A stretch of 64,000 nucleotides of DNA from Desertivirga brevis (GTDB taxonomy: Bacteria; Bacteroidota; Bacteroidia; Sphingobacteriales; Sphingobacteriaceae): the NCBI RefSeq assembly GCF_017355835.1, contig NZ_JAFEWF010000001.1:558001-622000 (forward strand), written 5' to 3'. Position numbers and translations under genes: made by a program. The notes beneath the pieces are model-generated. The model saw only the letters and a list, made by a program, of their open reading frames with translations, made no database searches and was not told the origin of the DNA. Of the stretch, positions 4,985 through 7,932 are shown piece by piece; position 1 is the stretch's first letter; each line of letters starts with the position of its first letter.

Positions 4985-5710
4985 TTATTTAAGCATGACG
5001 GTAATTGCTTGTCCTACGAGAATAGCGATACCAAAACTTAATAAGGTTCCTATAAGGACATATTCAGTAAACTTCAAATCGTTTCCCTCCTTTAAGTCTC
5101 CGAAACGAAAGATTGATTTTGCTGCAATAAGAAAGCCCACAGCTTCGTAATGACCTGTTGTGATAAATAGAAAAGTAAGTAGTCGTTCCAGGATACCTAT
5201 ATATTTTCCTGCACTTTCAAGAGATCCAATTCCGGTTAAGTTACTTGCAGGAAGTGGCACATTGGGTGTCCATTTTGCAATAAGAGTTTTTATTATGATG
5301 GAGGTAGGATAAGTAAGGAAAAGAAGCGCGAGTGTTAGGATCCAAAAAGTATCAGATTTGAAATAGCTGAAATCAATGCTTGGGTGCTCATAGGTGTACC
5401 ATACTATAACAATGGTAAGTATATGAAACAACTGATCGGCAAAGAACCATCTTCTTTTAGTGTCGGGCCTTTGAAAACTTAATTTAATGCCATCGATAAT
5501 GCCGTGAAAAAGCATGATCAGTAAAGCGGGTACAAGAAAACCCGCATTCCATGTGAATAAAATTGTAAGGATCCCATGGATTAAAATGTGATAGTAAAGT
5601 TTAGGGGATTTCAGCTTCCTGGCCTCCTTCTCAATTACCCATCTGTCTGGCTGTAAAAAGAAATCGCCAATAAGGTGGGCAACAAGGAGTTTAATTAGAA
5701 GCAGGTTCAT
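4985..5710 (-). CDS. DUF3307 integral membrane protein, SatD partner
   Basis: 241-residue polytopic membrane protein. The N-terminal signature LLVAHLIGDFFLQP followed by HILIHGILTILF matches DUF3307. About six hydrophobic segments can be seen (roughly 1-18, 40-70, 85-105, 118-140, 180-200 and 215-240). The His and Asp residues in the first helices (HLIGDFF, HILIHG, HGIIDG) recall ligands or a catalytic centre, but no activity is established. It overlaps satD by 20 bp, so the two are translated together. No terminator is evident downstream. Confidence 0.85.
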   Translation of the reverse strand: MNLLLIKLLVAHLIGDFFLQPDRWVIEKEARKLKSPKLYYHILIHGILTILFTWNAGFLVPALLIMLFHGIIDGIKLSFQRPDTKRRWFFADQLFHILTIVIVWYTYEHPSIDFSYFKSDTFWILTLALLFLTYPTSIIIKTLIAKWTPNVPLPASNLTGIGSLESAGKYIGILERLLTFLFITTGHYEAVGFLIAAKSIFRFGDLKEGNDLKFTEYVLIGTLLSFGIAILVGQAITVMLK

Positions 5711-6314
5711 CGATAGAAGATAGATTTTTTATTTTTTTCTTATAAAGGGAATTGAGTTCCAATATCTCAAAAAAATTGGCACGAGACAAGGCCTCACTTA
5801 CAGATGATTGAGTTTTATTAGTAAGCTCGGCTAATTCCGACTGAGACGCTCCTTGGTTTTCTAATGCTATTTTAACCATTTCTGCCACCGCAGGCGTCCA
5901 TTTATCTACCGCGATTAGAGCTAGTTTCAGGGCAATATTAAACTCGAAATCAAAATCTGCCGAAGCTGATCTGACAGACAAGCTTACCTTTTCTTTTTTC
6001 AGCAACTCAAACTTTTCCCCCGAAAATATGAAAGCCTCTCCGTTTGATTCACTTAATTTTTCGGCAGTATATCCTTCCCTTCCAATGCCTATAGCTATGC
6101 GGACGTCAATATTCTTAATGGTTTTAACACAAGCTTTAATGTAGATCGCTTTAAGAAGAGCCTCTTCCACTTCTGTTTTCAATTGAAAGCTGTCTCCCCG
6201 GAATATTTCCCAGCTTTCTTTACTACCAAGTGCCTCTTTTAATACAGAAAGCCACTCCTCTGTAGAAGTGGCTTTCCGTGAATTTATTATATCGCCTGTT
6301 AGTATAGCTATCAT
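5691..6314 (-). CDS. satD: SatD-family protein with C-terminal helix-turn-helix
   Basis: 207 residues. The N-terminal half (1-145) has two conserved acidic motifs, LTGDIINSRK and FRGDSFQL. Their spacing recalls the metal-binding Asp pairs of palm/cyclase folds, though I do not claim activity. The C-terminal part (about 145-200) contains a clear helix-turn-helix, GASQSELAELTNKTQSSVSEAL. The name comes from a streptococcal acid-tolerance locus; the function is unknown. It is coupled to the DUF3307 membrane protein by a 20-bp overlap and preceded by a three-palindrome array, so it is probably an autoregulating DNA-binding sensor. The promoter is not resolved; TAATTTG-like sequences lie within the array. 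Confidence 0.85.
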   Translation of the reverse strand: MIAILTGDIINSRKATSTEEWLSVLKEALGSKESWEIFRGDSFQLKTEVEEALLKAIYIKACVKTIKNIDVRIAIGIGREGYTAEKLSESNGEAFIFSGEKFELLKKEKVSLSVRSASADFDFEFNIALKLALIAVDKWTPAVAEMVKIALENQGASQSELAELTNKTQSSVSEALSRANFFEILELNSLYKKKIKNLSSIDEPASN

Positions 6315-6323
6315 TTTACAATG

Positions 6324-6397
6324 ATCGGCAAAACAGCCGATAATTCAAATTATCGGCTAAATAGCCGATATACTAAATTATCGGCCAATTAGCCGAT
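6324..6397. repeat. Array of three ATCGGC-N6-GCCGAT palindromes, candidate SatD operators
   Basis: Three copies of ATCGGC-N6-GCCGAT at 6324-6341, 6352-6369 and 6380-6397, with centres exactly 28 bp apart. The N6 cores are AAAACA, TAAATA and CAATTA on the + strand. The middle copy extends to TATCGGCTAAATAGCCGATA. The array fills the 93-bp gap between the guaB stop and the satD start, so it can serve only satD-DUF3307. Strictly repeated spacing of identical half-sites points to binding by several dimers of a regulator, most simply SatD. Confidence 0.85.
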
Positions 6398-6407
6398 ATC
6401 ATATTAA

Positions 6408-7932
<1,525 letters not shown>

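Follow-up and report, generated by a model that had tools for sequence, protein, structure and literature searches.

Which protein reads the regular array of palindromes that fills the gap in front of satD, and what might it do there? The array was detected in a 64-kb stretch of DNA (the window), in a gap (6315-6407) bounded by the stop codon of guaB and the start codon of satD, with all genes on the minus strand. The gap contains three exact copies of ATCGGC-N6-GCCGAT on the minus strand, identified by exact match and a common 28-bp register, and their centres fall at -18 (6324-6341, nearest satD), -46 (6352-6369) and -74 (6380-6397, nearest guaB) from the satD ATG. A sequence-only reading had reported three copies with centres exactly 28 bp apart in the gap ahead of satD, and both the spacing and the placement are confirmed. 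A repeat search of the window returned a 28-nt family in three copies (6320-6403, spacings of 28 and 28). When none or one mismatch was allowed, the three array copies were the only matches in the window; with up to three mismatches there were 22 (three exact, one with two mismatches and 18 with three), compared with a mean of 11.6 and a maximum of 22 in shuffled sequences. A step of 28 bp corresponds to about 2.67 helical turns (with 10.5 bp per turn, the 84 bp spanned by three units make about 8 turns), so the palindromes do not lie on one face of the DNA.

The gene satD (5691-6314, minus strand) encodes 207 amino acids and overlaps by 20 nt a gene for a DUF3307 membrane protein (4985-5710, minus strand), which matches PF11750 with 99.4 bits (gathering cut-off 23) and whose model is all helical with a pLDDT of 90; the overlap with a polytopic DUF3307 gene had been correctly described. 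The predicted DUF3307 fold gave no convincing match. The gene directly upstream of the array, which the earlier reading did not name, is guaB (6408-7877, minus strand, PF00478), encoding IMP dehydrogenase (IMPDH); it lies outside the conserved unit.

To compare the array among relatives, we scanned contigs with an alignment of 27 SatDs and retained the best 80 of 551 confirmed loci, which together with the window gave 81 upstream regions. Counting as a palindrome any site with five of six base pairs or better, we found a pair exactly 28 bp apart upstream of satD in 72 of these 81 regions, against 1.4 per 81 for random regions of the same loci, while pairs at 27 bp and 29 bp were present in 10 and 7 of the 81, respectively. 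Among the best 80 of 551 loci alone, the 28-bp pair was present upstream of satD in 71, compared with 12 of 330 regions upstream of other ORFs and a mean of 1.3 per 80 in shuffles. The nine loci that lack such a pair comprise one without an array (L076) and others whose units are degenerate or asymmetric. The number of units per array ranges from one to six and is most often three (43 of the 81 regions), as counted by a chain rule that sometimes locks on a dyad in the linker. Small departures from the step were seen in L080, with three 29-bp steps, and L020, with one 27-bp step. SatD matches were identified in 95 of 395 Bacteroidota genomes. Judged from these counts, the array in the window is one case of a widespread architecture. 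The same comparison had been proposed earlier as a check for a shared half-site and spacing; the spacing is indeed shared, whereas the identical half-site is not, as it varies by lineage.

Paired sites are nearly private to satD, unlike single palindromes. Using a pattern of two CGG-type palindromes at 28 bp with up to three mismatches, we obtained matches in 25 of 25 genomes, while the reversed pattern, used as control, matched none of the 25. The pair lies upstream of satD in 24 of the 25 genomes and exclusively there in 19. Paired sites away from satD were detected in four genomes: Olivibacter domesticus (L041), where the pair was found solely away from satD, and three others with one further pair each (L023, L043 and L050). 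Two more genomes (L014 and L080) have weak three-mismatch matches that form no clear array. For the CAC class (three genomes) and the TCC class (six genomes) every match is at satD, and for the TAC class all matches are at satD in five of six genomes, the sixth having one two-mismatch match elsewhere. Over these four half-site classes together, 39 of 40 genomes have a pair at satD, and 33 of the 40 have pairs only there; the reversed pattern matched once each in G420 and G351, which indicates the chance level. Single palindromes with none or one mismatch are no commoner than the reversed control in several genomes. In Desertivirga arenae, for example, the only exact single palindromes are the three of the satD array, and with one mismatch allowed there are 14, against 18 for the control; some other genomes contain further exact single palindromes.

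The half-site, written TAT-NNN, was tabulated for the 81 regions (the best 80 of 551 loci and the window) and for 30 loci from the Bacteroidota genome search, of which three are repeats. Most loci of Sphingobacteriia and Chitinophagia type carry CGG; the others have CTG, TCC or GCC, CAC, TAC (a Flavobacterium-like group), CGT, TAG, and ATG or AGG. The recognition helix of the SatD helix-turn-helix (HTH) varies along with it: QSx[VIT]SE is found with CGG, Q[DENH]AVSK or QDAISK with TCC or GCC, QNAVST with CAC (QNAVSG in L063, labelled CAC by hand) and QAAVSR with TAC. The CTG half-site also occurs with helices that differ little from those of CGG loci. Ranked by normalised mutual information with the class of half-site, the top three of the 207 SatD columns are E174, S170 and S171 in a first set with hand-assigned labels (64 non-redundant sequences, after four of the 81 were left out), and S170, E174 and S171, in that order, in a larger set. 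Two arrays (L056 and L071) mix ATTCC-type with ATCAC/ATCAT-type units in one 28-bp register; these could be intermediates of a specificity switch or could serve two SatD paralogues.

To allow for kinship, we mapped half-sites on a tree built from SatD residues 1-140, which leave out the HTH. The 111 rows available, three of the 30 added loci being repeats, were reduced to 109 by dropping L076 (no array) and L129 (unequal half-sites), to 107 by dropping the mixed arrays L056 and L071, and to 99 sequences at under 95% identity. Half-sites of L046 and L063 were assigned by visual inspection, GCC was counted as TCC and AGA as AGG, and L009 and L031, which hold both CGG and CTG half-sites, were labelled CGG. 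The half-site switches on 12 of the 196 branches; residue 170 changes on eight of these (P 5e-9) and residue 174 on six (P 1e-6), P values that are rough, since they rest on parsimony, in which ties were broken arbitrarily, and on equal treatment of all branches. They are the only two of 207 columns to pass the Bonferroni limit of 2.4e-4, the next-best column having P 2e-3. The two residues again lead the columns on a tree from residues 1-120. They do so too on a tree of the full-length proteins, but there K130 likewise falls under the limit (P 4.6e-5). Both belong to the predicted recognition helix (codons 169-178; 5781-5810, minus strand), as placed by the model. Recognition residues change with the operator in nine of the 12 switches, counting a change at 170 or 174; the other three (CGG to ATG, ATG to CTG, and CGG to CTG in L136) involve no change at 170, 171 or 174. 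Pedobacter jejuensis (L045) offers the clearest example, with a CTG half-site inside a CGG genus and the changes S170P, S171L and E174G on that branch. The joint evolutionary change of protein and sites, at a spacing that stays fixed at about 28 bp, suggests that SatD itself is the reader of the sites.

The spacing extends to distant SatDs and to other phyla. In a set of distant PF16264 loci, 27 of 30 yielded a usable ORF, with start codons assigned by rule and some possibly wrong. The best upstream direct-repeat lag was 29 bp in 19 of the 27, 28 bp in one and 27 bp in one, and thus 27-29 bp in 21, whereas a lag of 27-30 bp was found in 154 of 1200 controls (binomial P 3e-14, which is overstated because L109, L110, L112, L113 and L118 are near-identical). 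Plasmid records gave three matches to the window SatD and three more to a Vibrio SatD, close relatives of which are named in Vibrio, Aliivibrio, Shewanella, Marinomonas and others. In Vibrio lentus, TTAGCC-N6-GGCTAA occurs three times at 28 bp, with a half-site unrelated to that of the window; two near-identical Pseudoalteromonas records have one palindrome pair at 28 bp each, and the 28-bp direct repeat of Salinivibrio lacks good palindromes. No palindrome pair was found upstream of satD on a Segatella plasmid, and the phages searched for SatD gave no match. A step of 28-29 bp that is kept across unrelated half-sites points to an ordered assembly of protein on the DNA.

The closest named homologue of the window SatD, from D. 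arenae, is 89% identical. The modelled protein combines an N-terminal nucleotide-cyclase-like palm with a C-terminal HTH, consistent with the earlier description of a C-terminal HTH preceded by two acidic motifs of palm/cyclase type. In the model and the alignment, the conserved residues D8 and D41 are near the strand positions expected for metal ligands, which we take to be those of the cyclases. The fold comparison that had been suggested for the N-terminal domain matched palm-type cyclases (class III adenylyl cyclases, GGDEF diguanylate cyclases, Cas10/Cmr2 and GTP cyclohydrolase III) at 8-21% identity among the matches listed. SatD differs from these enzymes in that its palm is fused to a DNA-binding HTH and carries RGDSF or LGDEF instead of GGDEF. 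The window SatD did not match the SatD family PF16264 at E <= 1 and did not reach its gathering cut-off, and 50 of its 79 aligned homologues match at E <= 0.001. It shares the motif residues of the family, with D8, S12, G40, D41 and G92 common to 27 of 27 distant PF16264 members and four of four plasmid-borne ones.

DUF3307 is encoded by the gene after satD in every one of the best 80 of 551 loci, one of which is cut by its contig end. We also found a DUF3307-like ORF in all 30 loci of the Bacteroidota search (three of them repeats), in six of six plasmid-record loci and in 18 of 30 distant loci. Seven of nine distant loci inspected (L100, L103, L107, L110, L115, L116 and L117) encode a membrane protein of 104-111 amino acids downstream of satD whose sequence, compared by eye, is similar to the C-terminal part of DUF3307 (ERxL ... 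AxK ... FLxGN); a DUF3307 match was absent from six of these seven. These short proteins suggest that the constant partner of satD may be a short membrane module. On the other side of satD, guaB is directly upstream in L001-L004 of the 80 loci (best 80 of 551), so the guaB link is local. It is also located downstream of satD-DUF3307 in L016, L020, L022 and L025 (Chitinophaga/Flavihumibacter), and the guaB neighbourhood is thus recurrent and not general.

We propose, with considerable confidence, that the array serves SatD as the operator through which it regulates itself. Judging by sequence, SatD very probably binds the array and controls its own operon. A SatD dimer would read each 18-bp palindrome through the C-terminal HTH, and neighbouring dimers, held at the fixed 28-bp step, would form an ordered row by cooperative binding. 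Since its last dimer would cover the promoter of satD-DUF3307, the row most likely represses its own operon. The palm, with the acidic D8 and D41, probably binds a nucleotide that would change formation of the dimer or of the row, and operon output would in this way be tied to the nucleotide and to the membrane partner. That satD with its array is self-regulated had been suggested before and is now largely supported by the 28-bp pairs at satD and by helix changes that accompany those of the half-site. Tandem palindromic operators are known from other autoregulators, and SatD resembles these in the site at its own putative promoter, the predicted HTH reader and the repeated palindromes. It differs in keeping a 28-29-bp step across phyla as the half-site is replaced, and in its palm as a candidate sensor. 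In ParR/parC-type partition, an autoregulatory adaptor reads a centromere array and a filament-forming NTPase is encoded adjacent. Both systems have a regular array within the promoter from which the gene of the DNA-binding protein itself is expressed; we rejected a partition system because the neighbour of satD is DUF3307, and not a filament-forming NTPase, in all of the best 80 of 551 loci.

The position counts of the pairs place the operator at the putative promoter of satD. In relatives, the distal arm of the last palindrome overlaps a putative promoter box that adjoins the start codon. Among 24 upstream regions, the window included, whose last centre is at -18, T-10 is present in 24 and A-9 in 21, both part of the putative box and inside the arm of the last palindrome, while in the linker T-35 and T-34 are present in all 24, T-33 in 18 and G-32 in 16. 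The corresponding TTTG of the window (6346-6349, minus strand; -35 to -32 of satD) may be an upstream promoter element; the box that precedes the ATG is degenerate in the window itself. In the satD upstream regions, TATATTTG was counted 21 times on the coding strand and never on the other, compared with 1.4 in shuffles. It stands 4 nt before the ATG in five and 3 nt before it in two of eight TAC loci (26 nt in the eighth, L143), an abutment that predicts a leaderless or nearly leaderless satD mRNA. Leaderless transcripts make up 5.5% of mapped mRNAs in Flavobacterium psychrophilum (PMC9723704). Repression is the likely sign of regulation because the last palindrome overlaps the putative promoter; occupied operators beside the start would block RNA polymerase, which makes autorepression our first choice. 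In Vibrio the nearest palindrome centre is at -41, so that a box beside the ATG would not be overlapped there.

SatD might instead bind the array and activate its operon, or do both depending on a ligand. Activators often sit at distances like those of the centres at -46 and -74, and in many Pedobacter loci the last full palindrome is at about -47 to -50, some having a TAnnTTTG box at -38 or -39. Given the 24 regions with a last centre at -18 over the putative box, we regard activation as possible but rather unlikely. It is improbable, in our view, that SatD is a DNA-assembled nucleotide cyclase as well as a repressor: dimers lined up at 28-bp steps on their own promoter would bring the palms together for synthesis of a small nucleotide, the array would be an activating scaffold, the signal would act on the DUF3307 partner, and autoregulation would be feedback. 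The step might also be set by promoter geometry, if the linker combined a -7 box (TAnnTTTG) with the upstream box of the next promoter. The strand bias of TATATTTG and TAnnTTTG boxes 28 bp apart in eight loci agree with this, but TAnnTTTG is present in only 31 of the 81 regions (best 80 of 551 and the window). Gammaproteobacteria, moreover, keep the 28-bp step, which makes it unlikely that a Bacteroidota promoter sets it and a row of protein more plausible; we give promoter geometry little credence.

A palindrome by itself names no reader, and another DNA-binding protein might be the main one. This is very unlikely, as the residues that co-change with the half-site are in SatD's own recognition helix, and the pairs stay at satD in 39 of 40 genomes while the upstream neighbours vary. 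The palindromes could finally work as RNA, forming terminator or attenuator hairpins between guaB and satD. Two terminator-like matches on the minus strand inside the array (mean of 0.2 in shuffles) would fit, but the array is retained where the upstream gene is not guaB, no Rfam match exceeds its gathering score in 6100-6700, and neither the fixed step nor the co-change of the helix has an RNA explanation. Where the box abuts the ATG, the array would fall outside the satD mRNA altogether, and we consider a role as RNA extremely improbable.

The preferred reading, with SatD as a sequence-specific autoregulator carrying a cyclase-like domain, gives a concrete and testable function to a widespread pair that is mechanistically unexplained. 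Our literature searches on SatD found no report of DNA binding, of a role as regulator or of the array, in agreement with the earlier statement that the pair is uncharacterised; the literature searched also contains no description of the palm-HTH build, of the 28-29-bp step across phyla or of a drifting half-site paired with a readable helix. In PMC11323703, SatD is tied to acid tolerance in Streptococcus mutans (the sat genes), and satD is an accessory gene that is essential in some S. pyogenes strains. If the autoregulatory reading holds in streptococci, derepression of a harmful partner would be one explanation for a gene that is essential where present and absent elsewhere. Two further sources contain a Fusobacterium nucleatum protein annotated as SatD (PMC10326533) and DUF3307 as the table entry of a phage ORF (PMC8504454). 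The table of half-sites and helices amounts to a set of natural specificity switches that could be tested by swapping two or three residues.

Four of the 28-bp pairs away from satD were inspected by position. Those of two Pedobacter genomes (L150:2097-2142 and L151:2138-2183) are each just upstream of a TATATTTG-like box, of a CTCTTGAGAGC element common to both and, by eye, of a short hairpin with a T-rich tail; they perhaps mark a small RNA under SatD control. Those of two Olivibacter genomes (L152:2123-2168 and L153:2104-2149) are at the 3' end of a gene for a protein of about 70 amino acids (MTPEELKEYFDSNPPPFE...) and are possibly terminators. A small ORF similar to the one in the Olivibacter genomes is also encoded less than about 600 bp from the two Pedobacter arrays.
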